DNA of 21,782 nt from a virus, in the IMG/VR virus record IMGVR_UViG_3300036045_000456, positions 1-21,782 of that record; one strand, written 5' to 3'. How positions within the stretch are numbered: position 1 is the stretch's first letter; every line of letters starts with the position of its first letter. The position numbers and the translations under genes were made by a program. Below the pieces are notes generated by a model that had not been told where the DNA came from, made no database searches, and saw only the letters and a program-made list of their open reading frames with translations. Positions 480 through 21,198 of the stretch are shown piece by piece.

Positions 480-2060
480 TTAAATTGCTTGCAGCTTATC
501 AAGGATACGATCAACCAGAGCTTTCGCAGCCACGCGATTGGTTGAGCACTCGTAAATCAAGCCAATAAAGCCCTCGTACATCGAGCGCTTTTCGGGATCC
601 ATGCGTGCCAGCGGCGTCGCAACAATCTCGCCGACCTCCAGACTTTCCAACTCGCTGCGCAATCCTGCAACAACCGCTTTCCGAGCTTCGGCATGATCAT
701 CGGCCAGCACGTCCATTACGGCGACCTTGTGCATCGCGCGCAACACAGGCTCGACCGACTCCAGCATCGCTGTTCGGTCGGGTCTCGCAAGACCGCCCTG
801 AGCGACTACTGCCAGCTTCTGCAGCGCAGTTTCGTGCTGTATCTCGAACTCTCGCTGCCATTTGCGTTTTATCGAACTCGTTCGACAGCGTCGCGCGATG
901 TCCCGCGCCGTAGGGGTGAAGTGATTAAGCAGGTTGTGGAAGTGCGCATTCTGCTCAAAGTGATCGCGCCGCCCGTTTGGCACGATCCTCCTATCAACTA
1001 CGTGCACCTCGCCCACCGACCAACCGTTGAACCGGGCCTCTGGGAACAGGTCTTCCAAGAGAGCATTGTCGCCTACCTGGACGTTCCCGGCGCGCAGCCG
1101 CAGCCCTTTCACCAGCGTCCCGGTTGGCACCGCGCCCTCGTATTCATGATGAAGGAGCCAGCCGATCGCCGCGATATCGCCGTCAATGCCGGGAATCTCG
1201 ACGAAGCAGATGTCGTCGAAGCTGACGCCCACCTTGTCATCGACCGCGAAACGGTCGCGGTGCGGACGATAGTTTGGCTCCGCAGCGCCGTCGATCCAGA
1301 TGTCGAGCGCGCCGAGGTCGAGATAGCGCGAGAGCATCTCCGTGATATCAGCGCCGAAGCGGAACTCCGGTGAGAACGGCACAGGTGCGACCTGGCTAAG
1401 GTACTCCCCGATTGCAGTCGGGCTCATCAAGCGGTCATTGCGCAGCCGCACCACGCCCTTCATTTCAACCTCGAAGAAGCGTTCCGGCGCATCCGCGATC
1501 GCGACACGCTCTAGCGTCGTCACGCTGCGGATGAGGTCGGCGATGCCCGTCCTATCGCCAGCATCGCGCAGTGCCGATTTCAACCGTCTGCAGTCCCAAT
1601 GCAGCTCGGATACTTTCGACTCGCCTGGAGTGCGCGAGCGGAAGACCAGTTCCTGCGCGTAGCCAAGCCCGGCGAGCCGGCCCACGCCGCGGAAACCTCT
1701 TGCTGATGTCCCACGCTTCGCGCTGCCGCCGAGCGCCGTTAGCTTGTGACCGAAGTCTGAGAATGGAACGCCGCAGCCATTGTCCCTGATGCGGACCGTT
1801 CGGGTGCCGGCCTCGACCCAAATCTCTACCTGGCCGGGCTCGCTCTTGGCCAACACGCCCGCCGCCCGCGCCGCGTCGACAGCGTCGGCGGCGTTCTGGA
1901 TGTACTCGCGGTAGACAGTCATCGGGTCGACGTACATTGCGCTCGAAACCAGTTCCAGGACGTCCTTACCAACAAACAGCTCCGGCAACTCGTGCCGCTC
2001 GGCGCCACTGCGGTTCTGTGCCACAGCTCGAGCGACCATGGCAGTTGTGGAGGAGGTCAT
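480..2060 (-). CDS. HSP90-like GHKL ATPase (526 aa)
   Basis: This is a predicted cytosolic ATPase with the Bergerat fold used by HSP90, gyrase B and MutL. Visible motifs are the N box REYIQNAADA (51-60), whose E52 aligns with the catalytic glutamate of HSP90; the G1 box DNGCGV (93-98); and the glycine-rich lid motif GFRGVGRLAGLG (122-133). The order and spacing fit the HSP90 branch. At 526 residues it is shorter than HtpG, and its C-terminal third (from about 385) is mostly helical with no family I can name. The ATG overlaps the stop of the radical SAM gene (ATGA), with no clear ribosome binding site, so translation is probably coupled. It is the last gene of the operon, and IS debris begins about 30 bp downstream. 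It may remodel or gate the other operon products; its substrate cannot be told from sequence. Confidence 0.88.
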   Translation of the reverse strand: MTSSTTAMVARAVAQNRSGAERHELPELFVGKDVLELVSSAMYVDPMTVYREYIQNAADAVDAARAAGVLAKSEPGQVEIWVEAGTRTVRIRDNGCGVPFSDFGHKLTALGGSAKRGTSARGFRGVGRLAGLGYAQELVFRSRTPGESKVSELHWDCRRLKSALRDAGDRTGIADLIRSVTTLERVAIADAPERFFEVEMKGVVRLRNDRLMSPTAIGEYLSQVAPVPFSPEFRFGADITEMLSRYLDLGALDIWIDGAAEPNYRPHRDRFAVDDKVGVSFDDICFVEIPGIDGDIAAIGWLLHHEYEGAVPTGTLVKGLRLRAGNVQVGDNALLEDLFPEARFNGWSVGEVHVVDRRIVPNGRRDHFEQNAHFHNLLNHFTPTARDIARRCRTSSIKRKWQREFEIQHETALQKLAVVAQGGLARPDRTAMLESVEPVLRAMHKVAVMDVLADDHAEARKAVVAGLRSELESLEVGEIVATPLARMDPEKRSMYEGFIGLIYECSTNRVAAKALVDRILDKLQAI

Positions 2061-3688
2061 GCGGCGACCCTTTCGCGTGGCTTGGCATTGCGCACCGGCA
2101 CCGGGCCAACTTCTTCGTAGTCGAGGCCCGCGTCCTCCACTCGCTCATCCTCGGCGGGTCCCATTTCGGCTGCCGCCTCGTTGCGGGCAAGCTCCTTCTG
2201 CTTCGCCCAAATGGCGAACAGCTCCTCCTTGGGCAGGGGCACGTAGAAGCGCAGGACACGTTTCAGGGCCGCAGTTGTCGCCCGCTCAGCGAGACCTACA
2301 AATTCGCGTGGATCACAGGACGAAAGCAACTCGATCAACTCTCTGCGCTCATTACCGTCGAGGTTTTGGTATTCGGCGCAGTACGTGGCGAGCCGCTCCT
2401 CCGGATCGAACCGCTCGTACCAGTCGCGATTGAAGATGAAATCGTGCGGGAGGGCCAAGATGCGCTCATAGTCCTCGAAGGTGTCGCCGAAGGCTCGTTT
2501 GAAAAACGTCGGTTCCCCACTGACGATGCCATGCGTCGCTTGCAGGATGATCTGCATCGATCGGAGCTGATAGCGGGTCCACTTGTTGCCGATGTGGCCG
2601 CGATCGGGCCTGTCGGTCGGCTGGTATCGCATCGGGAACGACCATATTCGTACACCTAGCTCCTCGTTGAGCGTCACGTTGAGCCGCATCCGCTCGAAGA
2701 GGTCCGCAGGGTCGTCGTGAAAGTTGTAAAGCATATAGTTGGACAGTTCGGTCAACTGGTACTCTGCGGCGTATCGCACGGCCTGCTCGTAGGGCTTCTT
2801 CACGCCAAGGTGGTCGAATGCTATCCTCAGTGGTTTCAGGCAAATGGTTGCTAGCTCCCGCAGATACATAGGATCCGTGCACAGGATTCTGGCGTCGACT
2901 CCTTGATTGAAATCGACCCTGCGCTGGGCTGGCACGCGCATCCCGTCGCGCTGCAGCTTGGCGCAAGGCGTGAAGCCGAGGTCGCGGATCTCCGCGATGA
3001 TTTCCTTGAACCGCGGGCTTGCGACGACGTTGTTGTCCATCAGAACCAGGTCCTTCTTCGGACCGTAGTAGGCGTCGATGGCCTTCACGAGTGCGGTTAG
3101 TGACTCCGTGTCCCGCTGTGCGCCTTCAAGCTTTGGGACGCCGCAGAAGTGACACTTTCGAATGCAACCGCGCGACGTATACGCAAAATATGCATCTCGA
3201 ACTGGATATTGGTATTCGATCTGTTCGAGAATGCTATAGTCGGGGACTAGGTCCTCGATTGAACGACCGTGGATGTCGTCGGCATAAAGTTCCTCGGAGA
3301 ACTCGTCCAACTGGAGTGCAACCGCCGGCGGGTCCGACAGCAGACCCTTGATGAAGCGGACCCCCTGCCAGCGCGGCTCCTGCAGGAAGCGGTCGTGCAT
3401 TAAGGACGCGGCTATGCCTCCGACAAATACTTTGTCAGCCTGCCCGTTAGCGACCTCAAGCGCGAAGTCGACAGCCTGCGCAATTCTTGGGTATTCGAAC
3501 GAAAACAGGGTCGTGACGTAGATGCGGTCCCACGCCTGGCTGAGAACTGATCGGTCTTCGCCCTTTATGAAGCGAACGCGGTCTTTCTTCCCCTGGGGGC
3601 CGTGGTATTGAGCGATCTTCATCAGGCCGAGCGGTGGATACTTGTTCTTGTAGCCCGGTTCGATAAGCAAAATGTTCTTGTTAGCCAT
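2057..3688 (-). CDS. Radical SAM enzyme with N-terminal B12-binding-like domain (543 aa)
   Basis: The [4Fe-4S]-binding signature is SRGCIRKCHFCGVP, with CxxxCxxC at C175, C179 and C182. The N-terminal ~130 residues look like the Rossmann-type domain of B12-binding radical SAM proteins: PPLGLMKIA at 18-26 and VFVGGIAASL at 87-96. The cobalamin-binding DxHxxG motif is not evident, so cobalamin use is doubtful. In the barrel, MDNNVV (217-222) and NQGVDARIL (261-269) are strand motifs seen in this class, and a further ~200-residue C-terminal part follows. The reaction would start from a 5'-deoxyadenosyl radical; the substrate is unknown. Its place between a DndB-like gene and an HSP90-like gene suggests DNA or nucleotide modification (inference). 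A ribosome binding site (AAGGTGAT) precedes the ATG, which overlaps the upstream gene by 8 nt. Confidence 0.9.
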   Translation of the reverse strand: MANKNILLIEPGYKNKYPPLGLMKIAQYHGPQGKKDRVRFIKGEDRSVLSQAWDRIYVTTLFSFEYPRIAQAVDFALEVANGQADKVFVGGIAASLMHDRFLQEPRWQGVRFIKGLLSDPPAVALQLDEFSEELYADDIHGRSIEDLVPDYSILEQIEYQYPVRDAYFAYTSRGCIRKCHFCGVPKLEGAQRDTESLTALVKAIDAYYGPKKDLVLMDNNVVASPRFKEIIAEIRDLGFTPCAKLQRDGMRVPAQRRVDFNQGVDARILCTDPMYLRELATICLKPLRIAFDHLGVKKPYEQAVRYAAEYQLTELSNYMLYNFHDDPADLFERMRLNVTLNEELGVRIWSFPMRYQPTDRPDRGHIGNKWTRYQLRSMQIILQATHGIVSGEPTFFKRAFGDTFEDYERILALPHDFIFNRDWYERFDPEERLATYCAEYQNLDGNERRELIELLSSCDPREFVGLAERATTAALKRVLRFYVPLPKEELFAIWAKQKELARNEAAAEMGPAEDERVEDAGLDYEEVGPVPVRNAKPRERVAA

Positions 3689-4739
3689 TTATCACCTTGT
3701 ACCGAGCGCGTTTGCGTGCCTCGCGGATGAGGTCGACGGCCTGCTTGACACCAGCCTGCCCACCAAAGCCCTTGAGCGGACCGGAGGTGGACCAGTCAAT
3801 CGTGCAAGCGAAGTCCGTCAGCGCTGTCGTAAACGCGCGTTTGTCGCAGGGCCGGCCCTCGTCCCGACACTCACCCACGATATCGGCCGCTACCCGCATG
3901 AGCGCGTAGACGCCGATCCCCTTCGTCAACATATGCCGGCGAGGGTCCGCCCACTCCGCAGGCAGGACGGCGCCCACCGCTCGCCAGAAGTCCAGGAGTG
4001 TGCGCACGACGTCCTCGACGGGCGCCTTGGCCGACTTCGTCCCCTTGAGAAACTCGTGAACAGCGAGCTGCATCATCCGCAGCGAGACAATGCGTTTCGG
4101 GCTGGATGTGGCCTTGCCACCCAACTTAAGCCGCCGGTGCCAGGGCGACTCCTCCAAGCTGTTTAGCTGCAGAGCGATGAAGAGTTCGGGTCGTTCCTCA
4201 GTTAGCGCCTCGGCGAGTTGCGCCTCGTGGTAGTCCAGCAGGCTTGTGCTGAGCCCCTTCGCCTTGCTGTTGATGACGCTGAATACCTCCATCTCCTCTC
4301 GTTCGGAGAGGCCGATGAAGCACATGAACGGCAGAGGGATGGGCAGGTCGCCTAGGTGGCCGAGTCGGTGCTGGCAGTCCACCTGCGCCATGATCTTTCC
4401 AGCATCAGCAGCGATCTCAAGCCGAACACGCCCGTCAGTCAGCTCGACTATGCGCCACGCGCCAGCCGCCGATGGCCGCAGGTTCAACGTGAGCGGAATC
4501 GTCGAGCTATCCGGCTCCTTGATGTATCGCCGGAAGTCCTGGCTGTGGCGTTCGTTGAAAGGCCGCTGGTAGCCGCGGCCACTGTCCTCGTCGAGGATGT
4601 CCGGGAAGCTTATGCGATAGAGCAAGTCAGCAGGCGCGAACCCCAACAGGACAGGCCGGTGCGCTGACCGGCCCTTCATGCACTCGATCATGACAGGATG
4701 CGACACGCCGCCGTTCCGCTTCCAAAACTGCACTCTCAC
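3681..4739 (-). CDS. DGQHR-domain protein, DndB-like (352 aa)
   Basis: The core motif is QVDCQHRLGHL (119-129), matching the DGQHR signature with Cys in place of Gly. It is followed by the family's second conserved block, FSVINSKAKGLSTSLLDY (153-170). These place it with DndB-like proteins; DndB binds DNA and represses the dnd phosphorothioation operon. The N-terminal segment RGYQRPFNERHSQDFRRYI (55-73) also fits that family. The length is normal for a DndB. The start is uncertain: a GTG at 4739 is used here, another GTG lies two codons on, and ATGs follow at codons 17 and 21. None has a good ribosome binding site, and a stop codon lies five codons upstream. This is the only gene in the operon preceded by a real gap (71 nt). 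A role in regulating or targeting modification is inferred from the family. Confidence 0.85.
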   Translation of the reverse strand: MRVQFWKRNGGVSHPVMIECMKGRSAHRPVLLGFAPADLLYRISFPDILDEDSGRGYQRPFNERHSQDFRRYIKEPDSSTIPLTLNLRPSAAGAWRIVELTDGRVRLEIAADAGKIMAQVDCQHRLGHLGDLPIPLPFMCFIGLSEREEMEVFSVINSKAKGLSTSLLDYHEAQLAEALTEERPELFIALQLNSLEESPWHRRLKLGGKATSSPKRIVSLRMMQLAVHEFLKGTKSAKAPVEDVVRTLLDFWRAVGAVLPAEWADPRRHMLTKGIGVYALMRVAADIVGECRDEGRPCDKRAFTTALTDFACTIDWSTSGPLKGFGGQAGVKQAVDLIREARKRARYKVING

Positions 4740-4810
4740 GCTGCACTTTCGTCAGCGCCAGGCTGCAGGTCAAGACCGGAAAGGCTTGGCTGTTCGATTG
4801 TCCACAGCTT

Positions 4811-5827
4811 TCAGTCCCCGGATCGGAGCTTACTCCGAACGGCTTCGACCCGCCCGGACAGCTTGTCCAGTTCGAACCGGATCTTCTTGCGCGTCTCTCC
4901 CTGGGCTCGACTGAGGGCCGCCTCGACCTCGGGTTTGACCAGCCACTGTCGGAACTTGGCGAGCTTCTTGTAGGGCGCGCTGTCCGCGCCGGCTTCGACC
5001 GCGTGTTCATGCGCGTCTTCGAAATCGAAACCTCGCGTCGCGAACTTCACCAGCGTCTTCTGCGCAGAGCAAATCACCGGGAGCCGGTCGCGGACATCAA
5101 CCGCTCGGGCGATCTCGCCCGATTTGATCTTCTCCACTACCAAGTCATCAAAGCCGGGCTTCGCGAGACGCGCTTTCCGTACCGCAGATGACTTAAGGTA
5201 TTCGTCGTAGTAGCTCCAGCGGGCGGTATCTGCCTCACCATGGTCGATCATGAACTGATAGACTGCGATCAGATGTTCTACCTTGCGTCTCGAGAGTCCG
5301 ATCTCCTGTGCGAGCTGAGGAGTGCTGATGTCGTGCGCCTTAGAGCGCCGGTACAGGAAGCCTGCCTGCTCGAATGGAGCCCAATCCTTTTTACCCTTGA
5401 TGTGGTATTGCCCGAGAAGGGCAAAGATCAGCGCCTCGTCCAAGTTCTCCGGCAACAGCCGTGCCTTCATCCGGCCCCATTTGATTGGGTCGCCTTTGGC
5501 AAGGGCACGATAGGCGGCGAGCCGGCTGTTGCCCTCCAACACTTCAAGCGTTCCAGCCCGCACGACCACTGGATCGGTGAGGCCCCCGTCGCGCTTGATA
5601 TCCTGGATCAGCGCCTTCACGTGATCCATCTCAAGCAGCCTGCGTTCGATATCGAACTGGCTCGGCTCTCCGCCATCTGCGCGCAGGACCGAGTAGACAC
5701 GGGGATTTTCTACGAAGAAGCAAAGATCGGCTTGCGGCAGGGTCGTCGTCTGAACCGGCACCTCCACTCCGCGAATGAGCAGCGTTTCTCCTGATGCGGC
5801 GGATGCGGCCTGGGCAGTAGCGCTCAT
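4811..5827 (-). CDS. ParB-like protein with HTH (338 aa)
   Basis: Residues ~30-130 resemble the ParB/Srx N-terminal fold. VKALIQDIKRDGGLTDPVVV (70-89) is the usual 'go left or right to find an alternative' region. LEGNSRLAAYRAL (97-109) replaces the classical GERR motif with GNSR, as in ParB-like proteins outside chromosome partitioning. A helix-turn-helix follows (STPQLAQEIGLSRRKVEHLI, 168-187). The segment H-x-x-G-x-x-x-W-x-P at 142-151 is shared with the first gene of the operon, so the two look like distant paralogues. The C-terminal half is charged and helical. The ATG overlaps the SNF2 stop by 4 nt (ATGA). ParB-fold proteins bind CTP, bind DNA or act as nucleases; which applies here cannot be decided. 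It is not a partition ParB: no ParA is nearby. Confidence 0.85.
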   Translation of the reverse strand: MSATAQAASAASGETLLIRGVEVPVQTTTLPQADLCFFVENPRVYSVLRADGGEPSQFDIERRLLEMDHVKALIQDIKRDGGLTDPVVVRAGTLEVLEGNSRLAAYRALAKGDPIKWGRMKARLLPENLDEALIFALLGQYHIKGKKDWAPFEQAGFLYRRSKAHDISTPQLAQEIGLSRRKVEHLIAVYQFMIDHGEADTARWSYYDEYLKSSAVRKARLAKPGFDDLVVEKIKSGEIARAVDVRDRLPVICSAQKTLVKFATRGFDFEDAHEHAVEAGADSAPYKKLAKFRQWLVKPEVEAALSRAQGETRKKIRFELDKLSGRVEAVRSKLRSGD

Positions 5828-7305
5828 AACTCTACAGCTCCGTCCAGTCGTAGCACATCCCGCACCATTTCGCCGAACGCGTAGTCGGCGCGCCGGTCAT
5901 ATTCGGCGCGACCAATGTCACCCTGCCCAAGCTGGGCCGCAAGGTGCTTGGCGCCAAGGAGGGCGTCGACCCAGCTGTCGACGGTCCCGGTGGCGACGAG
6001 GTTCGTGACAAAGCAGGGCTTCTCCTGCGAGATGCGATGAATGCGGTCCTGAGCCTGCAGATAGTCATCGAGGCTGAAGCTTCGGTCAAAGAAAACGGCG
6101 TGGTTCGCCATCGTGAGCGTCAGGCCTTCCTTTGCGGCACCTGGCGTTGCGACGAGCACCTGGCACTCCGCATCGGTCTTGAAGGCGGCGAGGGCTTCCT
6201 GGCGCCTAGGCATGCTCAGCCCCCCGTGCACGACGCCGGTCCCGAACTCTTCGAGGTGTCTGGCGAGCAGGTCGGCGTTCTCAGTGAACGACGTCCACAC
6301 GATAATCTTCTCTCGCGAGTCCACCGCTTCGTGAACGAGCGCGTCGAGTGTCGGCAGCTTACCCGGAGCGGACCGGTATGATTGATCAATCATAGCCGGA
6401 TTGGATGCAACCTGGACGAGACGCAGGAGGCGCTTCAGAAGGCCCTCGGCGTCATCGAGCACGGCGCGCCCCCCCTGGACCACGATGGCGGCGAGTTCGT
6501 CGCGAAACTGATCGTAGATCTCCGCCTGGCGCGCTTCGAGGGCGCATTCAATGTTACGGATGGTCTTGTCCGGAAGCCTAACGCCCGCGCTCTTCTTGGT
6601 TTCCCGGACAGAGAACGGCCGGATCCTCTCAAACAATCCCTCAAGCTCGTTCGCGAATGCAGCGGCGCGCTCAGGGCTCCGACCAAGGTCGTTGGCAAGA
6701 TCCATTTCGTGTTTGAATGCCGCGAAATCGTGGCCCAGTGCAGCCCCGCCGTCGAGGAATCGCACTTGGGACCAGAGATCATAGGGACGGTTGGCGACAG
6801 GCGTGCCAGTCATAATCACCCGTCGGCCGAAGCCCTTCGACAACTCATGGAGGGCCTTGCTGACTGCAGCGTCGGGGTTCTTGATCTTGTGAGCTTCGTC
6901 GAGCAGTACCCCAACTCGCCGCGTCTTCAGGAAGAGCTCAAGGCGCTTTCGCTCCGACAAGACCGTCTCGTAGTGCGTGAGGTAAAGTCGCGCCGGGCTA
7001 TTGAAAGCATAGAAGTTGGCGTTGCGGTCCTGGCTTAGCACGCGCGGTCTGAGATGGCTGTGCTCCGCCACTTCCGAGCGCCAGTTCTCGACCAAACCCT
7101 TCTTTGTGATGATCAGCACAGAGTCGACAATATCTCTGGCAAGCCAGGACAGCGCGAGGTCCAAACCGATCTTCGTCTTTCCGAGACCCTGCTCGTGGAA
7201 CACAGCCGCGAACGGCAAGTCCTTGATCGCCTCGAGCGCGTCGAGTTGATGCGGAAATGCGGGGCGCTTGGACTCGAGGTTGGCCGGCTTCTGAACCTTT
7301 AGCAT
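5824..7305 (-). CDS. SNF2-family DEAH helicase/translocase (493 aa)
   Basis: All superfamily 2 motifs are present. Motif I is HEQGLGKTK (37-45), motif II is LLDEAHKIKN (134-143), motif III is MTGTPVANRP (165-174) and motif IV is around IIVWTSFTENADLLARHL (334-351). Motif V is VATPGAAKEGLTLTMANHAVFFD (385-407) and motif VI is QAQDRIHRISQ (417-427). The arrangement is that of SNF2/RapA-like dsDNA translocases. It ends about 65 residues after motif VI, so there is no fused nuclease; the gene before it encodes a nuclease-like protein that could act as its partner. The ATG lies inside the end of that gene (7-nt overlap). Translocases of this type occur in many phage-defence loci, including DISARM, Dpd and type III-like restriction. 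Confidence 0.95.
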   Translation of the reverse strand: MLKVQKPANLESKRPAFPHQLDALEAIKDLPFAAVFHEQGLGKTKIGLDLALSWLARDIVDSVLIITKKGLVENWRSEVAEHSHLRPRVLSQDRNANFYAFNSPARLYLTHYETVLSERKRLELFLKTRRVGVLLDEAHKIKNPDAAVSKALHELSKGFGRRVIMTGTPVANRPYDLWSQVRFLDGGAALGHDFAAFKHEMDLANDLGRSPERAAAFANELEGLFERIRPFSVRETKKSAGVRLPDKTIRNIECALEARQAEIYDQFRDELAAIVVQGGRAVLDDAEGLLKRLLRLVQVASNPAMIDQSYRSAPGKLPTLDALVHEAVDSREKIIVWTSFTENADLLARHLEEFGTGVVHGGLSMPRRQEALAAFKTDAECQVLVATPGAAKEGLTLTMANHAVFFDRSFSLDDYLQAQDRIHRISQEKPCFVTNLVATGTVDSWVDALLGAKHLAAQLGQGDIGRAEYDRRADYAFGEMVRDVLRLDGAVEL

Positions 7306-7730
7306 GGTCGTTCAACGGAGCGGCTGGTCGATCCATCGAGGACGACGAGCCGGGTCGTTGCGTTTACGAACGGTGCGTTGAGCTCGGCGAGAAGTCGGCG
7401 CGCCGTTGCGCCGGCCGCCAGTGGCACCGCCAGTACGAAGACTCCACCTGGAGTATTGGACAAGTGTCTCAGGAACGCCGCGATCTGACGCCGCGAATGA
7501 TCCGTCTCCAGGTCGCGCTGTGTCTTCGCCTCGCCCACGATGGTCTTCGTGGTCGGCACGTCCGTGGCATGGACGTCGGGCGTATAACCCTCGATGCGTG
7601 GCGGTCGCTCACCGCGCATGGGGCGCACCGCGTCCTCTCGAACAGCGATTTCCACGAACGCCCCGAACTCGCGCTCGGCGAACATTATCACCGCTTGCAC
7701 CAAGCTGGCGTGGGTCGCGGATTCTGGCAT
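7299..7730 (-). CDS. Small PD-(D/E)XK nuclease-like protein (143 aa)
   Basis: The protein carries a compact PD-(D/E)XK pattern. TPD at 50-52 is followed 14 residues later by EAK at 67-69 on a strand (TIVGEAKT), then by a helix containing Q81 (RQIAAFLRHL), all after an N-terminal helix (HASLVQAVIMFAE). This is the core layout of restriction-endonuclease-fold enzymes, here with few additions. It starts one nucleotide after the stop of the first ParB-like gene and runs 7 nt into the SNF2 gene, so the helicase and nuclease are likely made together and may form one complex (inference). The last ~45 residues hold a hydrophobic strand (GVFVLAVPLA) and have no recognised family. Activity requires the D52/E67/K69 triad to be real, which is not proven. 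Confidence 0.72.
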   Translation of the reverse strand: MPESATHASLVQAVIMFAEREFGAFVEIAVREDAVRPMRGERPPRIEGYTPDVHATDVPTTKTIVGEAKTQRDLETDHSRRQIAAFLRHLSNTPGGVFVLAVPLAAGATARRLLAELNAPFVNATTRLVVLDGSTSRSVERPC

Positions 7731-7731
7731 T

Positions 7732-8751
7732 TCAGGACGTGAGCCCGAGCGACTTGGTCAAATTGGACAGCTCAGCCTGCGCCTCAATCAGAGCTTGAGC
7801 GGTCTCACCGCCCGGATCGGCCCCGATCCGCTGATACTCGGCATACGGCAGTGAAGCGACCTTTCCGACGAGGGCGCGGGCAAGTTGCCCGATCTCCGCC
7901 TCCTGCAAGGTCCGACTAAGGTCCGGTTTCTCGAGGACGGCTTCGGCCTTACGGGCGCCGTGCTTGAGGAAGATCTCTCTCGCCTTCTCGTTGCGAAGGA
8001 TGCGCGGCAGTACGCGAACCTTCTGCAACGGGTAAAGCTTGTTCTCGTGAATCCAGCGGGCGAAGTCGCTGATCTCAAATCCCGCGGCAGTAATCGCCTG
8101 CTTGATCCCAGATTTCTGCAATTCAATGAAGCCGCTAAAACGCGTCGTGTCGAAATCGCCATCGTCGCCTACTACAGGGCGGTAGTACTTCTCCATGTCC
8201 GCGTAAGCGTTGATGCTCTCTGTCACCTCTGTCTGCCGCCCTCCGCAAAAGTCGACGATAGTGGCGAACGGTAAGTGGTCCTGCGTACGAAGCTCATGTA
8301 GGTACTTTGCCTTGGAGTAGGGATCCCAAGGTCGGGTTCCAACAAGGTGCACCTGAAGCCGAATGGCGTGGACCGAAGCAGCGTCGATTTCATCATGAAC
8401 GAGCGCTGGGATGTGAGACCAGGAACCTTTGACCCCCGTCCTCCCGAACTCCTTGTAGAGCGCAACTCTAGTGTTGCCTTCTACACAGATTAATTTGCCA
8501 TCCCTAAGTTTGTTTAAGATAACTGGTTGAATGATACTGCCGTTTGTTAGTATGGACTGCTTTAACTTCTCAAATGTGGTCGCTGTCGAGCTACCTGGAT
8601 CGTCATCGTTCGCGGCACCGAGGGCCAGGAAGATCTGTTCCGACGTGGGTTCGTCGCCGTACATCTCGAGAAACTTCCGGATGCGCGGATTGGAACGGTC
8701 GAGCTCGATCTCTTCAACCGCAACGGACTCGTGTTGGCCAGCACTGACCAC
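7732..8751 (-). CDS. ParB-like protein, first gene of the operon (339 aa)
   Basis: The N-terminus has the ParB-type entry VAVEEIELDRSNPRIRKF (10-27). It continues with LKQSILTNGSIIQPVIL (63-79) and CVEGNTRVALYKEF (89-102), where GNTR stands in for GERR. The later H-x-x-G-x-x-x-W-x-P segment (135-144) and a helix-turn-helix-like stretch (ATIVDFCGGRQTEVTESINAY, 163-183) parallel the second ParB-like protein of the operon. The GTG start at 8751 is supported by a strong ribosome binding site (GGAGGG, 6-nt spacing). No ATG with a comparable site is nearby. The gene leads the operon and could help target or sense DNA; its enzymatic state (CTPase, nuclease or DNA binder) is unknown. Confidence 0.85.
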   Translation of the reverse strand: MVSAGQHESVAVEEIELDRSNPRIRKFLEMYGDEPTSEQIFLALGAANDDDPGSSTATTFEKLKQSILTNGSIIQPVILNKLRDGKLICVEGNTRVALYKEFGRTGVKGSWSHIPALVHDEIDAASVHAIRLQVHLVGTRPWDPYSKAKYLHELRTQDHLPFATIVDFCGGRQTEVTESINAYADMEKYYRPVVGDDGDFDTTRFSGFIELQKSGIKQAITAAGFEISDFARWIHENKLYPLQKVRVLPRILRNEKAREIFLKHGARKAEAVLEKPDLSRTLQEAEIGQLARALVGKVASLPYAEYQRIGADPGGETAQALIEAQAELSNLTKSLGLTS

Positions 8752-8895: not shown

Positions 8896-9294
8896 TCAGC
8901 CGAACCGTGATCGCTGCTCCTCCCACGCTGCCGGAACCGCATTCCACAGATCTTCCAGCCGCATCCCCTCCGGCTGCCGCCCGTCAAGGATCTTCTCGAC
9001 GATGTCCGTCGCAAGCAGCGTCAGCCGCAGCATCCGGCTAAGGTAGGCCCGGTCAATCCTCTCCCGTATCGCCAGCTCCTCGATCGTCCCGCAAACCCCT
9101 TCGTCCAGCATCCTCTGCCATCGGAACGCCCGCGCGAGAGCCTTGATGAGAGCGTTATCCACCCGGGGACGCAGTGCCCACGGTGCGCCGTCGGGCGTCA
9201 TCACCAACTTCCTCCCGCCTCGCCTCGCGAAAATCATCGGGATGTGGATCGTGATGGTCTCCCCGTCCGCCGCGACAGTCGTCTGCTTCGTCAA
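8896..9294 (-). CDS. HTH protein of the recombinase cassette (132 aa)
   Basis: The frame is open far upstream, but the natural start is a TTG at 9294 that overlaps the recombinase stop (TTGA) and sits 7 nt after GGAGGG. The product begins TKQTTVAADGETITIHIP and has the segment TIEELAIRERIDRAYLSRML (about 83-102), a ParB/KorB-like helix-turn-helix, followed by LLATDIVEKILDGRQP. Proteins like this commonly follow the DUF2924-recombinase pair in alphaproteobacteria. It probably binds DNA near the recombination site or regulates the cassette (inference). It is the last gene of the cassette, and the defence-like operon begins 145 bp beyond it. Confidence 0.8.
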   Translation of the reverse strand: MTKQTTVAADGETITIHIPMIFARRGGRKLVMTPDGAPWALRPRVDNALIKALARAFRWQRMLDEGVCGTIEELAIRERIDRAYLSRMLRLTLLATDIVEKILDGRQPEGMRLEDLWNAVPAAWEEQRSRFG

Positions 9295-10610
9295 GCCGCG
9301 GCCCTCCGGCTCTCCACCACGTCCCGCACGAGTTCGGCGAGGCCGTTCGGCCGCAGCCGAATCTCGACGCCATGCCTCCGCAATTCGACCCGCTCGACTA
9401 TGAGCTGCACGATCCGCGCCTGCTCCGCGGGGAACAGCTCTACCCACAATGGATCAAGGCGTAGCAGTGCATCCCGAACCTCGTCCTCAGTGACATTGTC
9501 GTGCTCGGCACGAGCGGCGCGCCAAGTGCCGATGATGATCTCCGGCTGCCGGAACACGCCGCGCAACTGGTCGATGACCAACGCCTCGACTTCGGCCGCG
9601 GAGACGCGCCCGACCGGGCACGCGTCCCGCCCTCGCTTCAACACGTCCTGGCTGACGTAGTAGCGGTAGAGCCGATTGCCCTTGCGGGTGTGGGTCGGCG
9701 ACATCGCCGCGCCGGTCGGCCCGAAGATCAGCCCCTTCAGCAGCGCCGGCGTCTGCGCCCGGGTGTTCGCCGATCGGGTGCGGGCGTTCTCGGCAAGGAT
9801 GGCATGGACCTTGTCCCAGAGGTCTTGGTCGATGATCGGCGCATGCTCTCCGGGATAGGCGGTGCCCTTATGGATGGCGAGCCCGAGGTAGGTCCGGTTG
9901 CTGAGGCACTTGTAGAGATAGCCCTTGTCGATCGGGCGGCCCTTGGTGGTCACGACGCCCTCCGCCCGCAGCTCCCACGCCAGCACGGTGGCCGAGCCAA
10001 TGCGCAGGAACCGCTCGAACATCGACCGAACGACCGCCGCTTCGGGCTCGTGCACCATGAGCTTTCGATTCTGCACCACGTACCCGAGCGGCACGCTGCC
10101 CCCCATCCACATGCCCTTCTGCCGTGATGCCCGGATCTTGTCCCGCACCCGCTCGGCGATGACCTCGCGCTCGAACTGGGCGAAGGAGAGCAGGATGTTG
10201 AGCGTCAGCCGCCCCATCGAGGTCGTGGTGTTGAAGCTCTGCGTCACGCTGACGAAGGTGACGCCGGCGCGGTCGAACACCTCTACCAACTTCGAGAAGT
10301 CCATGAGCGACCGCGACAGCCGGTCGATCTTGTAGACCACGACGACGTCGACCAAGCCCTCCTCGATGTCGGCCAGGAGCTGTTGCAGCCCGGGCCGCTC
10401 CAGCGTGCCGCCGGAGAAGCCGCCGTCGTCATAGGCGTCGCGGACCAGCGCCCAGCCTTCCGACCGCTGGCTGGCGATGTAAGCCTCGCACGCCTCGCGC
10501 TGCGCCTGCAGCGAGTTGAACTCCTTGTCGAGCCCCTCCTCGGTCGACTTCCGGGTGTAGACTGCGCAGCGCAGTTTGCGGATCGGCTTCCCCTCGGGAC
10601 CCCGGGTCAT
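9291..10610 (-). CDS. Large serine recombinase/integrase (439 aa)
   Basis: The resolvase domain is complete. The nucleophile lies in YTRKSTEE (Ser22), followed by YDDGGFSGGTLERPGLQQLL, the VYKIDRLSRS catalytic arginine block, and GRLTLNILLSFAQFEREVIAERVRDKI leading into the long helix. A recombinase domain follows (GYLYKCLSNRTYLG), then a C-terminal region. The C-terminal zinc-ribbon cysteines of classical large serine integrases are mostly missing (TGAAMSPTHTRKGNRLYRYYVSQ), as is usual in this alphaproteobacterial subgroup. The ATG at 10610 overlaps the DUF2924 stop (ATGA), which rules out the longer reading frame upstream. It is the likely integrase of the mobile element. Its att sites could not be located. 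Confidence 0.95.
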   Translation of the reverse strand: MTRGPEGKPIRKLRCAVYTRKSTEEGLDKEFNSLQAQREACEAYIASQRSEGWALVRDAYDDGGFSGGTLERPGLQQLLADIEEGLVDVVVVYKIDRLSRSLMDFSKLVEVFDRAGVTFVSVTQSFNTTTSMGRLTLNILLSFAQFEREVIAERVRDKIRASRQKGMWMGGSVPLGYVVQNRKLMVHEPEAAVVRSMFERFLRIGSATVLAWELRAEGVVTTKGRPIDKGYLYKCLSNRTYLGLAIHKGTAYPGEHAPIIDQDLWDKVHAILAENARTRSANTRAQTPALLKGLIFGPTGAAMSPTHTRKGNRLYRYYVSQDVLKRGRDACPVGRVSAAEVEALVIDQLRGVFRQPEIIIGTWRAARAEHDNVTEDEVRDALLRLDPLWVELFPAEQARIVQLIVERVELRRHGVEIRLRPNGLAELVRDVVESRRAAA

Positions 10611-11053
10611 GCTGCACTCCGCTGGCTCTTGAGCCCGAAGAATACTAGCCCGTTCCACCTCGTGCCGGTGATCGCCCGGGCGACCGCCGACAGAGACCGG
10701 TACGGCCGGCCCTGCCACTCGTAGCCCTCGGTCATCACGGTGACCGTGTGCTCGACCCCGTGCCACTCCCGGATGAGTCGGGTGCCGGCGATCGGCATGA
10801 CGTCGTCGCGGATGCGGCGGCGGCTGATGTTGCGATCGGCGAACTGCTCGCCGAGCGCCTCGAGGCGCTTACGCGTCTCCGGTTTCAGCCCGCCGTAGGC
10901 GAGCTCCTGGATGCGGTAGGCGAGCCGGCTCTCGAGGTAGCGCCGGTTGTAGCCCGGGGGCTCGGCGCCGAACAGCGTGCGCCATTCGGCCTTCAGCTCG
11001 GGCAGCGCCATGGTCCTGAGCGCGGCAAGGCGGGCGGGGATCGGGTTAGTCAT
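10607..11053 (-). CDS. DUF2924 family protein (148 aa)
   Basis: The sequence shows the family layout: an N-terminal LAALRTMALPELKAEWRTLFG segment, then YNRRYLESRLAYRIQELAYGGL, and a C-terminal region with GTRLIREWHGVEHTVTV, YEWQGRPYRSLSAVARAITGTRWNG and FFGL. DUF2924 proteins are found almost always directly upstream of a serine recombinase in alphaproteobacteria, as here, with ATGA coupling on both sides. The C-terminal part resembles small DNA-binding accessory domains; a directionality or accessory role is plausible but unproven. Confidence 0.92.
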   Translation of the reverse strand: MTNPIPARLAALRTMALPELKAEWRTLFGAEPPGYNRRYLESRLAYRIQELAYGGLKPETRKRLEALGEQFADRNISRRRIRDDVMPIAGTRLIREWHGVEHTVTVMTEGYEWQGRPYRSLSAVARAITGTRWNGLVFFGLKSQRSAA

Positions 11054-12949: not shown

Positions 12950-13435
12950 GTGACCGCCCCCGCCAACCGTCCCCGGCTCGGGGACTTGCCGACGATGCCG
13001 ATCGGCGACATCGCCGCGCTGCCGGCCGATCTGCTCGCCGTGCTGCAGGAGGAGGCCGAGGAGGCCGCCAAGGCCGCTCGGCAGCTGGCCGACTGGCTGA
13101 ACGGCGCGATCGCGCTCCGCTACGCCGACCGCGCCGCGGCGGCGCGCCGCGCCGAGGGCAAGGACTCCGGCACGGTCCGGCTCGACGACGGCGAGGTGAC
13201 GGTGATCGCCGACCTGCCGAAGAAGGTTGAGTGGGACCAAGCAGCGTTGGGTGGCATGGTCGACCGCATCCGTGCCGCCGGCGACGCCCCCGCCGAGTAC
13301 GTGGAGACGAGCTTCCGGGTGTCGGAGCGGAAGTACGCGGCTTGGCCGGCGTCGATCCGCGAGGGCTTCGACGCGGCACGCACCGTGAAGCCTGGCAAGC
13401 CGACCTTCAGGCTGACGCTCCGACAGGAGCGCTGA
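12950..13435 (+). CDS. Conserved prophage protein, unknown function (161 aa)
   Basis: The GTG start at 12950 directly follows the upstream stop. The N-terminal half is helical and Ala/Glu-rich (LLAVLQEEAEEAAKAARQLADWLNGAIALRYADRAAAARRAEGK), probably a short coiled coil. The C-terminal half carries VTVIADLPKKVEWDQAALGGMVDRIRAAGDAPAEYVETSFRVSERKYAAWPASIREGF, a conserved-looking block. No function can be assigned. About 110 bp without a gene follow before the Sak4-type ATPase. Confidence 0.75.
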   Translation: MTAPANRPRLGDLPTMPIGDIAALPADLLAVLQEEAEEAAKAARQLADWLNGAIALRYADRAAAARRAEGKDSGTVRLDDGEVTVIADLPKKVEWDQAALGGMVDRIRAAGDAPAEYVETSFRVSERKYAAWPASIREGFDAARTVKPGKPTFRLTLRQER

Positions 13436-13545
13436 GGACGGGCGGCGGGCAGCCCGCGCCGAGAGGTCGGGCAGGTTCCCCTTCGGCGCCCGGTCAATCC
13501 CGCCGCTCGTCCGTTCCCTTTCCAACGCCATCACGGGGAGTCCGC

Positions 13546-14394
13546 ATGGCCCTTCGCATCATCAGCGCCGACGAACGACTCTCGGCCGCCGCGAACAAGA
13601 CCTCGTTCGCGATCTTCGGTCCGCCCGGCATCGGCAAGACGACGCTCCTGAAGACGCTGCCCGAAGCGGAGACCGTCTGCCTCGACCTCGAGGCCGGGAT
13701 GAAGTCGGTGCAGGACTGGCGCGGCGCCAGCATCCCGGTCCGGAGCTTCGGCGACTTCCGCGACCTCGCGGTGCTGATCGGCGGCGCCGACCCGGCGCAG
13801 GACAACGCCTCCTGGTACAGCGCTGCGCACTTCGAGCATGTCCGGGCGACGACCCGCGACAGCGGGCTCGAGGCGTTCCTCGCCACGAAGTCAATCGTCT
13901 TCGTCGACTCGATCACCGACCTCACGCGCCAGACGATGCTCTACGCCAAGCAGCAGCCCGAGGCGATCTCGGAGCGCAGCGGCAAGCCCGACGTGCGCGG
14001 CGCCTACGGTCTGCTCGGCCGCGAGGTGATCCAGGCGCTGAAGCACCTGCAGCACGCACCCGGCAAGACCGTGATCTTCGTCGGGGTGCTCGAGAAGGTG
14101 ACCGACGAGTTCAACACCGTCACCTGGCAGCCGCAGATGGAGGGCTCGAAGGCGGGGCGCGAGCTCCCCGGCATCGTCGACCAGGTGCTGTCGATGCACC
14201 TCTTCGGCCGCGACAAGGACGGCGGCTATGTCCTCGACGACAAGTCGGCGGAGCGGCGCCTCGTCTGCCGGGCGGGCAACCCCTACGGCCTCCCGGCCAA
14301 GGACCGCTCCGGTCGCCTCGACATGACCGAGCCACCCGACCTCGGCCAACTCCTCGCCAAGATCAACGCGGCCGGCGCCGCGCCCGCCCTCTGA
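13546..14394 (+). CDS. Sak4-type RecA-like ATPase (282 aa)
   Basis: Walker A is GPPGIGKTT (25-33) and Walker B is IVFVDSITD (117-125), in the short RecA-core arrangement of phage Sak4-like single-strand annealing or recombination ATPases (AAA_24-type). The C-terminal part (WQPQMEGSKAGRELPGIVDQVLSMHLF, 193-219) fits the same group. The natural ATG at 13546 has a GGGGAG ribosome binding site; the open frame upstream of it is not coding. Together with the SSB-like and exonuclease genes behind it, it forms a phage recombination set. Confidence 0.85.
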   Translation: MALRIISADERLSAAANKTSFAIFGPPGIGKTTLLKTLPEAETVCLDLEAGMKSVQDWRGASIPVRSFGDFRDLAVLIGGADPAQDNASWYSAAHFEHVRATTRDSGLEAFLATKSIVFVDSITDLTRQTMLYAKQQPEAISERSGKPDVRGAYGLLGREVIQALKHLQHAPGKTVIFVGVLEKVTDEFNTVTWQPQMEGSKAGRELPGIVDQVLSMHLFGRDKDGGYVLDDKSAERRLVCRAGNPYGLPAKDRSGRLDMTEPPDLGQLLAKINAAGAAPAL

Positions 14395-18630: not shown

Positions 18631-21198
18631 ATGATCGATCTCAACGACGTCTGGTCGCCGCCGGCCCGCGTCGACCTCGCCGCGGTGAAGGCGCAGCTCG
18701 CCGCGACCGCCGCCGGCTGGCTGCCGGACCTCTTCCCGCAGGCCCGCCTTGCGCCCGACCGGCGGACGCTGCGCTGCGCCGACCTCTCGGGCCGCCCGCC
18801 GCGGAAGGAGGGCTCCTGCGTCCTGCACCTCGACGGGCCCTACGCCGGCTGGGGCTTCGACTTCTCGACCGGAGAACGGGCTGGCCTGGTCGACCTGATC
18901 TATCACGCCACCGGGCTCACCGACGGCGCGCTCTTCGAAGAGGCGGCGCGGCTCGCGCGCATGGACCGGCCGGTGCCGGCGCCGCGAGCGAGGCCCGACC
19001 ACACGCTCGAGGTCCGCCGCATCCTCGACGGCTGCCGGCCGCTCGCCGGCAGCCCGGCAGAGGCCTATCTGCGCAGCCGCGGGCTGACGGACCCGAACTC
19101 GACGGACCTGCTCTATCATCCCGACCTCACCGACTACGACGGCGGCCGCGGCTGGCCGGGCATGGTCGCCATCCCGCGGCGTGCCGACGGCACTAAAGTC
19201 GGCGGCATTCATCGGACCTTCCTGCTCGACGACGGCTCGGCGAAAGCGCCGGCGGGAAAGAAGATGCTGGGCTCCGTGGCCGACGGCGCGGTGCGGCTCT
19301 TCCCGATCGGCGACGACGGACATCTCGGCATCGCCGAGGGCGTCGAGACTGCGCTCGCCGCGCAGGCGATCTTCGGCGTGCCGGTCTGGGCCGCGCTCTC
19401 CGCCGACGGCGTGGCGCGCTGGCAGTGGCCGGCCGACCTGCGGCGCGTCACGATCTTTGCCGACGCCGGCGAGGCCGGACGCGCGGCGGCCGCCCGGCTC
19501 GCCGAGCGGCTGACCGCCGGGGGGGTTCCGAACGAGATCGTGGCGCCGCTCCATGGCGACGACTTCAACGACGACCTGCAGCGCGGCGCGGCGGCGGCGG
19601 ACTATGGACGCGCGCCGGACGTGACCGACACCGAGGCGACGCCGGCGACCGTCGCGGGCAAGCCCGGCGCCGGCACCCTCTGTGCCGAGCTCGAAGCCGC
19701 GGCCGAGGCGTTGACCAACCCGCCCGACGTCGCCGCGCTGGGCACGCTGCTCGGGCGTCTGGTTCTGGCCAGGCTCGACCCGTTGCCGGAGCGGCAGGTG
19801 CTGGCGCGAATGAAGAGCCGGACCGGCATCGCCATGTCGGTGCTCGAGCGGCAGCTCGGCGAGCTGCGCCGGCGACTGAACGCGACCGGCGGCCTGTCGC
19901 ACCGCGCCGTCCGTCCGGCCTGGTCGCACCAGCTGCGCCTCGACCTCGCCGGCCAGCCCGAGCGCAACGAGGCCAACGTCATCACCGCGCTCGGCTGCGA
20001 CGAGGCCTTCGCCGGCGCGATCGTCTTCGACGATTTCCGCAAGGAGGTGCTCGTCACCCGGCCGCTGCCCTGGTCCCCGGCGGGCGAGCGCTTCCCCCGC
20101 TCCTGGACCGACGCCGACGACGTGCGCGCGGCCGCCTGGCTGCAGCACCGGGAGCTGAACGTGACCCCGATGACCGTGAGCCGCAGCGTCCTCGCCGTGG
20201 CGCGCGAGACCATGGTGCATCCGGTTCGCGACCATCTCGGCGCGCTGGCCTGGGACGGGGCGCCGCGCATAGAGACCTGGGTCCCGCGCTACCTCGGCGC
20301 CGAGGACACCACGTTCAACCGATCGGCCGGCGCGCTCTGGCTGATCTCTGCGGTCGCCCGCATCTTCCGGCCCGGGGTCAAGGCCGACCACATGCTGGTG
20401 CTCGAGGGCCCGCAGGGCGCCGGCAAGTCCACGGCGCTGAAGATCCTCGCCGGCGAGGACTGGTTCACCGACGAGCTGCCCGACCTCGGCTCGAAGGACG
20501 CCGCCATGCACATGCAGGGCGTCTGGATCATCGAGATCGCCGAGCTCGACGCCATAGGCAAGGCCGAGGTGTCGCGGATCAAGGCGTTCCTCACCCGCAC
20601 CACCGACCGTTTCCGTCCGCCCTACGGCCGCTACACCATCGAGGTGCCGCGGAGCTGTGTCTTCGCCGGCACGGTGAACCCGGACGCCTATCTCCGCGAC
20701 GAGACCGGCGCCCGCCGCTTCTGGCCGATCCGCTGCGGGAGCATCGACACCGCGGCGCTCGCCCGCGACCGCGACCAGCTCTGGGCCGAGGCCGTCGCCC
20801 GGTTCCGCGCCGGCGCGATCTGGTGGCTCGACAGCCCCGAGCTGACCGACGCCGCCGCGCGCGAGCAGGACAAGCGCTACCAGGTCGACGCCTGGGACGC
20901 GCTGATCGCCCGCTGGATCACCCACGAGGTGCGGACGGTCGCCGGCTCCTCGCCCTACGACCCGCCCCGCACCGAGAGCGTGGAGCGCGCGGCGCCCCTC
21001 ACCGACGTGTCGGTCGGCGAGATCCTCGGCCAGTGCATCGGCCTCGAGCCGGGGCGGTGGACCCGTGCCGACCAGATGCGCGCCGGCGCCTACCTCAAGG
21101 CGAAGGGCTGGGAGCGCTATCAGACCCGTAAGGCGAAGGGACGGCACGGCGCGAAGGAGTGGCGGTACCGCAACCCGGCCCCGGCCGGAGAGGACTGA
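18631..21198 (+). CDS. Toprim primase fused to VapE-type helicase (855 aa)
   Basis: The N-terminal third holds a primase-like domain with AEAYLRSRGLTDP (143-155, DUF7146-like). A Toprim segment follows: IAEGVETALAAQ with E236, and VTIFADAG with D278, where the usual second Asp is absent. HGDDFNDDL (308-316) comes next. The C-terminal half is a VapE-type SF3 ATPase: Walker A GPQGAGKST (593-601), Walker B VWIIEIAELD (631-640), and GARRFWPI (693-700) with the arginine finger. The order primase then helicase is that of phage and mobile-element replication initiators. The start MIDLNDVW has no strong ribosome binding site but follows the previous gene by 15 bp. Confidence 0.92.
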   Translation: MIDLNDVWSPPARVDLAAVKAQLAATAAGWLPDLFPQARLAPDRRTLRCADLSGRPPRKEGSCVLHLDGPYAGWGFDFSTGERAGLVDLIYHATGLTDGALFEEAARLARMDRPVPAPRARPDHTLEVRRILDGCRPLAGSPAEAYLRSRGLTDPNSTDLLYHPDLTDYDGGRGWPGMVAIPRRADGTKVGGIHRTFLLDDGSAKAPAGKKMLGSVADGAVRLFPIGDDGHLGIAEGVETALAAQAIFGVPVWAALSADGVARWQWPADLRRVTIFADAGEAGRAAAARLAERLTAGGVPNEIVAPLHGDDFNDDLQRGAAAADYGRAPDVTDTEATPATVAGKPGAGTLCAELEAAAEALTNPPDVAALGTLLGRLVLARLDPLPERQVLARMKSRTGIAMSVLERQLGELRRRLNATGGLSHRAVRPAWSHQLRLDLAGQPERNEANVITALGCDEAFAGAIVFDDFRKEVLVTRPLPWSPAGERFPRSWTDADDVRAAAWLQHRELNVTPMTVSRSVLAVARETMVHPVRDHLGALAWDGAPRIETWVPRYLGAEDTTFNRSAGALWLISAVARIFRPGVKADHMLVLEGPQGAGKSTALKILAGEDWFTDELPDLGSKDAAMHMQGVWIIEIAELDAIGKAEVSRIKAFLTRTTDRFRPPYGRYTIEVPRSCVFAGTVNPDAYLRDETGARRFWPIRCGSIDTAALARDRDQLWAEAVARFRAGAIWWLDSPELTDAAAREQDKRYQVDAWDALIARWITHEVRTVAGSSPYDPPRTESVERAAPLTDVSVGEILGQCIGLEPGRWTRADQMRAGAYLKAKGWERYQTRKAKGRHGAKEWRYRNPAPAGED

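Follow-up and report, generated by a model that had tools for sequence, protein, structure and literature searches.

In IMG/VR virus record IMGVR_UViG_3300036045_000456, a radical SAM enzyme with a B12-binding-like N-terminal domain and an HSP90-type ATPase, accompanied at about half of the loci examined by a DGQHR-domain protein, form the conserved unit of a gene cluster to which exchangeable nuclease cassettes are attached. The window, that is the whole stretch analyzed (positions 1 to 21,782 of the record, 21,782 bases), holds this unit within seven minus-strand open reading frames (480-8751), for which the original prediction, made from the letters alone, had proposed an operon for DNA modification or defence of a kind not described before. 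The seven-gene set does recur elsewhere, as that prediction expected, but the conserved unit is smaller than seven genes; the ParB-nuclease-SNF2-ParB block belongs to a group of alternative cassettes and can be exchanged, for which reason the seven genes were rejected as one fixed system. A modular defence system of the modification-and-restriction-like kind, its mark written by the B12-like-fold radical SAM enzyme, is the reading that we favor, and we give it about an even chance.

All seven open reading frames are intact, and neighboring genes overlap or almost abut, except for a gap of 71 nt preceding the DGQHR gene. The core consists of the HSP90-type ATPase (480..2060, 526 aa; HATPase_c_3, 5e-7), the radical SAM enzyme (2057..3688, 543 aa; Radical_SAM, 1e-4), which is presumed to be the modifying enzyme, and the DGQHR-domain protein (3681..4739, 352 aa or slightly shorter, the start codon being uncertain). 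The remaining genes make up what is here called cassette A: ParB-like protein 2 (4811..5827, 338 aa; TIGR00180, 4e-4), an SNF2-type helicase/translocase (5824..7305, 493 aa; SNF2-rel, 2e-27), a small PD-(D/E)XK-like nuclease (7299..7730, 143 aa; assigned by its pattern of conserved residues) and ParB-like protein 1 (7732..8751, 339 aa; weak ParB_N match). Place, strand and tight spacing are as originally predicted, and the predicted identities stood as well, by family search for the SNF2, HSP90-like, radical SAM and DGQHR/DndB proteins, by alignment for the PD-(D/E)XK protein and weakly for ParB.

Relatives of the radical SAM enzyme were collected from 12 plasmid records, seven other virus records and the best 80 of 146 bacterial genome stretches, and open reading frames were clustered over 94 loci including the window, so that the radical SAM gene is present in all 94 by construction. 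In 93 of the 94 loci the HSP90 gene follows directly, overlapping the radical SAM gene by 4 nt in 49 of these 93. Other families reach about half of the loci or fewer (SNF2 48, ParB-like 48, DGQHR 47, PIN_8 29, a large DGQHR protein 18), and beyond them only integrases, recombinases and transposases are widespread in the 94. The exact order and orientation of all seven genes is found at 15 loci, window included, and at 13 further loci the ParB-nuclease-SNF2-ParB block is inverted. Two checks independent of the 94-locus set also show the core genes to be obligately linked: full-length radical SAM, HSP90 and DGQHR proteins co-occur in an identical 12 of 72,556 plasmids (about eight once duplicates are removed), and the two genomes among 297 that have one of radical SAM and HSP90 have the other as well. 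The system is rare and patchy (two of 297 genomes in each of two groups) but reaches at least seven phyla; where a phylum could be assigned the loci belong to the Pseudomonadota, Acidobacteriota, Verrucomicrobiota, Chloroflexota, Gemmatimonadota, Nitrospirota, Binatota and Latescibacterota, some of these labels coming from metagenome bins and being possibly wrong. On a Mesorhizobium plasmid (L012, 23686-25629), genes for a patatin-like phospholipase and a DncV-like nucleotidyltransferase (CBASS-type) lie a few kb from the system.

What stands next to the core is exchanged. Cassette A consists of the ParB, PD-(D/E)XK, SNF2 and ParB genes, with a third ParB in some loci, while cassette C is a single protein of about 780 aa with an N-terminal restriction-endonuclease-like region (motif QLEDDVW...MGF...RQ[IL]DVFAKDDETVFIVECT, with T at the usual Lys position) and a DGQHR domain; one of two members scanned also has a weak HEPN match. 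Cassette A is present at 48 loci, cassette C at 18, and both together at none of the 94 (Fisher p 3e-7; p 2e-6 in the 61 loci with more than 8 kb of flank on each side), p-values that ignore the relatedness of the sequences and are indicative only. The exchange holds despite this relatedness, since the well-supported branches of the radical SAM tree require at least eight switches between A and C; on this tree the window, with cassette A, clusters with three C loci. It is also visible in the DNA: two Sphingomonas loci, L040 with A and L028 with C, share 81% identity over the core starting at the DGQHR gene and differ in their upstream cassettes, and the window and its nearest relative (L015) are likewise similar from the DGQHR gene onwards with the upstream cassette exchanged. 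The 12 plasmids divide completely, seven having the ParB-like protein 1 of cassette A and five a full-length C.

Further genes are compatible with the core in a looser manner. Cassette B, a PIN_8 protein with a second HSP90-like ATPase, occurs with A as well as with C and is optional; its presence on 12 of 12 plasmids had suggested that it is obligatory, an idea that was rejected, since of 25 genomes whose locus lacks B only one has it elsewhere. Another, rarer cassette, adjoining cores that have none of A, B and C, combines a HerA-like ATPase and a second HSP90-like ATPase with a 280-320-aa protein that on visual inspection resembles a methyltransferase (L046, 13174-17172; L050, L069, L077, and L086). 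Directly upstream of the radical SAM gene of one locus, L085, lies a gene for an AIPR protein (2656-4647; abortive infection phage resistance; Pfam, 2e-33).

The radical SAM enzyme belongs to its superfamily by both motif and fold: the CxxxCxxC motif (C175, C179, C182) lies in a radical SAM barrel and the fold matches agree. This motif and FNQGVDAR are invariant across 32 diverse homologues, whose alignment has a mean column identity of 68%. The structure model (pLDDT 82.8) predicts a B12-binding-like domain followed by the barrel, and its best matches in the PDB are MiaB, MgmA, TsrM, AprD4, and OxsB. The window enzyme has this architecture in common with all five, but differs from them in its low identity (13-16%), an extra helical C-terminal domain and an EDERVEDAGL tail. 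A B12-like fold does not imply the cofactor, as AprD4 has it as well, yet works without cobalamin. The conserved acidic tail EDERVEDAGL stands at the very C-terminal end, behind a variable, disordered linker, and might serve to dock a partner. Across phyla the identity to the window enzyme is 56-88%, which is unusually high; as identities range from 29 to 69% among the HSP90-like proteins and from 18 to 64% among the 143-aa proteins, this is consistent with an enzyme of fixed substrate and fast-evolving partners.

The second core protein is an ATPase of the HSP90 type. Its GHKL residues and a PNGRRD motif are conserved across 93 homologues, and the 50 best PDB matches listed for its AlphaFold2 model (pLDDT 88.6) are all HSP90/TRAP1-type chaperones (best E 8e-14). 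The Foldseek matches to HSP90/TRAP1 extend over about 480 columns, through the GHKL domain and then the HSP90 middle domain, and because they cover most of the model the protein is more than a generic GHKL ATPase. The DGQHR protein matches TIGR03187 (4e-39), DpdB (2e-17; 63 bits, cut-off 300) and, weakly, DndB (3e-6; 27 bits, cut-off 29.1). Its gene is often upstream of the radical SAM gene, with an 8-nt overlap kept in 27 of 46 loci; as only 47 of the 94 loci carry it, even after a profile search, it was rejected as an obligatory part.

Among the proteins of cassette A, the 143-aa protein returned no match in family searches, and H7, D52, E67-A-K69, D73, and Q82, a PD-(D/E)XK pattern, are kept in 17 diverse homologues. 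Its gene adjoins the SNF2 gene in 46 of 48 loci, and the SNF2 protein has EQGLGKTK and LDE motifs conserved in 48 homologues. The predicted restriction-like character of the helicase-nuclease pair is supported. Both ParB-like proteins match ParB-type families only weakly and carry short motifs (EGNTR in protein 1, EGNxR within the family of protein 2). Their genes are found in 48 of the 94 loci, always together with SNF2, and on plasmids protein 1 is confined to seven of the 12 that carry the radical SAM gene.

One distant relative has the radical SAM-HSP90 pair among known restriction machinery. In a prophage (L097, contig G620, 3002-13481), one strand encodes HSP90, a UvrD-like helicase, a 358-aa protein, DrmA (2.8e-161 over 54-1149), DrmB (1e-52), a NERD-helicase, the radical SAM enzyme, HSP90, and Mrr. 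The partner slot can therefore take known restriction machinery, here DrmA, DrmB, NERD-helicase and Mrr. There is no methyltransferase gene in this operon; elsewhere on the contig, a simple scan for motifs showed only two methyltransferase-like genes, both in a phage region on the opposite strand at least 14 kb away. DISARM normally includes a DNA methyltransferase, and the ATPase of DrmAB is lower on methylated DNA (PMC9142583); the radical SAM-HSP90 pair would accordingly stand at the place expected of the marking enzyme. A gut element (L095) has three adjacent genes, one HerA-like, one for HSP90 and one for a radical SAM enzyme of 38% identity. At L098 (8364-11617) a full-length homologue of PD-Lambda-5_A is encoded directly upstream of a related radical SAM gene, with no HSP90 gene within the stretch examined; the discoverers of PD-Lambda-5 class it as a compact system of the RM+Abi type that includes a methyltransferase domain (PMC9519451).

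Phages carry short homologues of the radical SAM enzyme (phrog_9298 type, about 300 aa), collected here from 71 loci (L099-L169), while scans of viruses with the radical SAM proteins of L095, L096, and L097 as queries were unproductive. In these partly related loci, a PP-loop (PAPS-reductase-type) gene, present in ten, adjoins the homologue in seven (0.85 expected), and a C5-methyltransferase gene, present in five, does so in three (0.55 expected). The helicase, DnaB and SSB families used as controls show no such closeness, and N-type DNA methyltransferases are no nearer than by chance. We regard this adjacency as a lead.

Compared with described systems, the cluster resembles several and belongs to none of those tested, in agreement with the predicted absence of the hallmark genes of Dnd, Dpd, and DISARM. 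Dpd, the system of 7-deazaguanine DNA modification and restriction, resembles the cluster in that a DGQHR protein (in the window one with a DpdB match below the cut-off) is coupled to a modifying or presumed modifying enzyme, and in having an SNF2 protein (a DpdE-like match), a nuclease and further genes; in the cluster, unlike in Dpd, radical SAM chemistry would do the modifying and an HSP90-type ATPase is constant, and no match to DpdA, DpdC, DpdD or DpdF-K was found among the seven window genes. The phosphorothioation systems Dnd, Ssp, and Pbe have in common with it the presumed logic of a single modification core joined to exchangeable restriction modules, and a protein of DndB-like type, but the DGQHR protein of the window is closer to DpdB than to DndB, and among the seven genes there is no DndC (PP-loop), DndD, DndE or DndFGH and only the weak match to DndB. 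The likeness to DISARM is that of the distant pair within the DrmA-DrmB operon of L097, where it replaces the usual methyltransferase; the window has none of DrmA, DrmB, DrmC and the methyltransferase, and its short SNF2 protein matches only the helicase part of DrmD models. ZorD is the best PADLOC family for the SNF2 domain (3e-41), but the helicase of 493 aa is without the other parts of ZorD (NCBIfam score 79, cut-off 1500), and the motor genes ZorA and ZorB were not found in the window. Both ParB-like proteins weakly match PD-Lambda-5_A (0.003-0.009), with no PD-Lambda-5 pair in the window. The prediction that no catalogued system would match was borne out: PADLOC holds no model for the core, and PADLOC-DB 2.0.0 (2023) gave no match at E 0.1 for the radical SAM, HSP90 and 143-aa proteins (P0002, P0003, P0007). 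No published description of radical SAM and HSP90 in defence was found in open-access full text, a scope that leaves outside subscription papers, most preprints and the current DefenseFinder, and the system is absent from the closest comparative papers (PMC10853773; PMC12839542) and from the YprA paper (PMC12458937).

The setting of the operon in the window is that of a mobile element. As predicted, it is less G+C-rich than its surroundings (about 0.60, against about 0.67 across the recombinase and 0.69-0.74 farther right) and adjoins a large serine recombinase on the minus strand (9291..10766; Resolvase 6e-42, Recombinase, Zn_ribbon_recom), whose true start is probably about 150 nt inside its open reading frame and which would serve mobility, outside the mechanism. 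Together with a DUF2924 protein and a small helix-turn-helix protein it forms a trio at 8896-11053 that is also found near the system in L002, L004, and L007, in four elements with the window, and that is probably the integration module of the system. To the right, the plus strand encodes a Sak4-like AAA_24 ATPase (13231-14391) and a Toprim-VapE primase-helicase (18631-21195); because these are replication genes of phage or plasmid type, the operon is taken as cargo that a mobile element carries.

In the mechanism that we propose, the core, radical SAM enzyme and HSP90-type ATPase and usually the DGQHR protein, would put a chemical mark on host DNA and so protect it. This is drawn by analogy from Dpd as the closest precedent, in which the DGQHR protein DpdB drives the modifying enzyme with ATP, its ATPase powering the insertion of dPreQ0 (PMC12839542). 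The two ParB-like proteins of cassette A might then recognize or clamp DNA, the SNF2 motor would translocate along it, and the small PD-(D/E)XK protein would cleave DNA without the mark, presumably that of phages. The single protein of cassette C, with its nuclease-like, DGQHR and possible HEPN domains, could fill the same role, and cassette B, a PIN RNase with a second HSP90, may act as a suicide or back-up arm. Several points weigh against this proposal. The substrate may be RNA or protein, since MiaB, the top fold match, acts on tRNA and a protein methylase comes close behind it; half or so of the loci lack the DGQHR protein; and DNA restriction has no need of RNase-type domains such as those in B (PIN) and perhaps C (weak HEPN). 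To our knowledge HSP90 has no role in DNA modification, and no protein of the cluster is singled out as the reader of a mark. The combination of DISARM with radical SAM and HSP90 is known from one contig, and the loci with phage adjacency are partly related and not independent, the families having been chosen after inspection.

The main rival, which we hold to be unlikely, takes up the first of these points: the radical SAM-HSP90 core would modify RNA or protein, such as a tRNA or a partner protein, and its disturbance during infection would free the nuclease cassettes, by the logic of a guard or of a toxin-antitoxin pair. It owes its weight to the closest solved folds, MiaB (tRNA) and MgmA (glutamine methylase), to the HSP90 partner, which as a rule acts on proteins, and to the PIN RNase with a second HSP90 in B and the weak HEPN match in C; a constant core with alternative nucleases is also compatible with a guard. 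What speaks for DNA instead is that the machinery of cassette A and of the DISARM partner works on DNA (SNF2, PD-(D/E)XK, ParB, DrmAB, Mrr), that the relatives of the DGQHR protein come from DNA modification systems and that the phage homologues adjoin DNA methyltransferase genes, while the radical SAM protein, judged by its sequence, does not have the N-terminal cluster cysteines expected in MiaB-type methylthiotransferases. Radical SAM enzymes acting on nucleotides, such as viperin and OxsB, also exist, and the window enzyme might make a modified nucleotide that poisons phage replication, in the manner of viperin-type enzymes, with the other genes acting separately. OxsB is indeed among the fold matches and PP-loop genes adjoin the phage homologues, but this improbable explanation leaves unaccounted for the obligate linkage to HSP90 and DGQHR, the mutual exclusion of A and C and the DISARM operon, and the enzyme has no match in PADLOC.

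The roles of self and invader could also be reversed, with a core that modifies or senses invader DNA and cassettes that cut modified DNA, self being unmarked as in type IV restriction. ParB and DGQHR proteins could read modified bases, and rarity and modularity resemble type IV systems; a resident modifying enzyme that is constitutively active next to a nuclease requiring modification would, however, put the host at risk, and the nearest analogues, Dnd, Dpd, and DISARM, mark self, which makes this arrangement very improbable. There is, finally, a small chance that the cluster serves the competition or maintenance of mobile elements (plasmid or prophage exclusion, addiction) and not phage defence as such. 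It is carried by plasmids and by elements that also have genes for integrases, serine recombinases and phage replication, and a part played by ParB-fold proteins in conflicts between plasmids is described in literature that PMC10853773 cites, but many copies are, to judge from contig size, chromosomal, and such a function overlaps with a restriction-like mechanism rather than excluding one.

Returning to the modular modification-and-restriction-like reading, we put forward only tentatively that the cluster makes a new DNA modification (of base, sugar or backbone), by a B12-like-fold radical SAM enzyme with HSP90, in a self-marking module joined to at least three unrelated restriction machineries (SNF2/PD-(D/E)XK/ParB, the nuclease-DGQHR fusion, and DISARM/Mrr). 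If true, this would be the first defence system whose self mark is written by radical SAM chemistry and the first with an HSP90-type ATPase in its core, and both would be added to the parts list of bacterial immunity. It makes a clear prediction, a new change in host DNA that depends on the cysteine motif. The exchange of A and C and the one DISARM hybrid would be a natural experiment on the recombining of marking and cutting modules, and the system offers a clue to what the phage radical SAM family phrog_9298, widespread but without a name, does; this family may be a phage counterpart or counter-measure.

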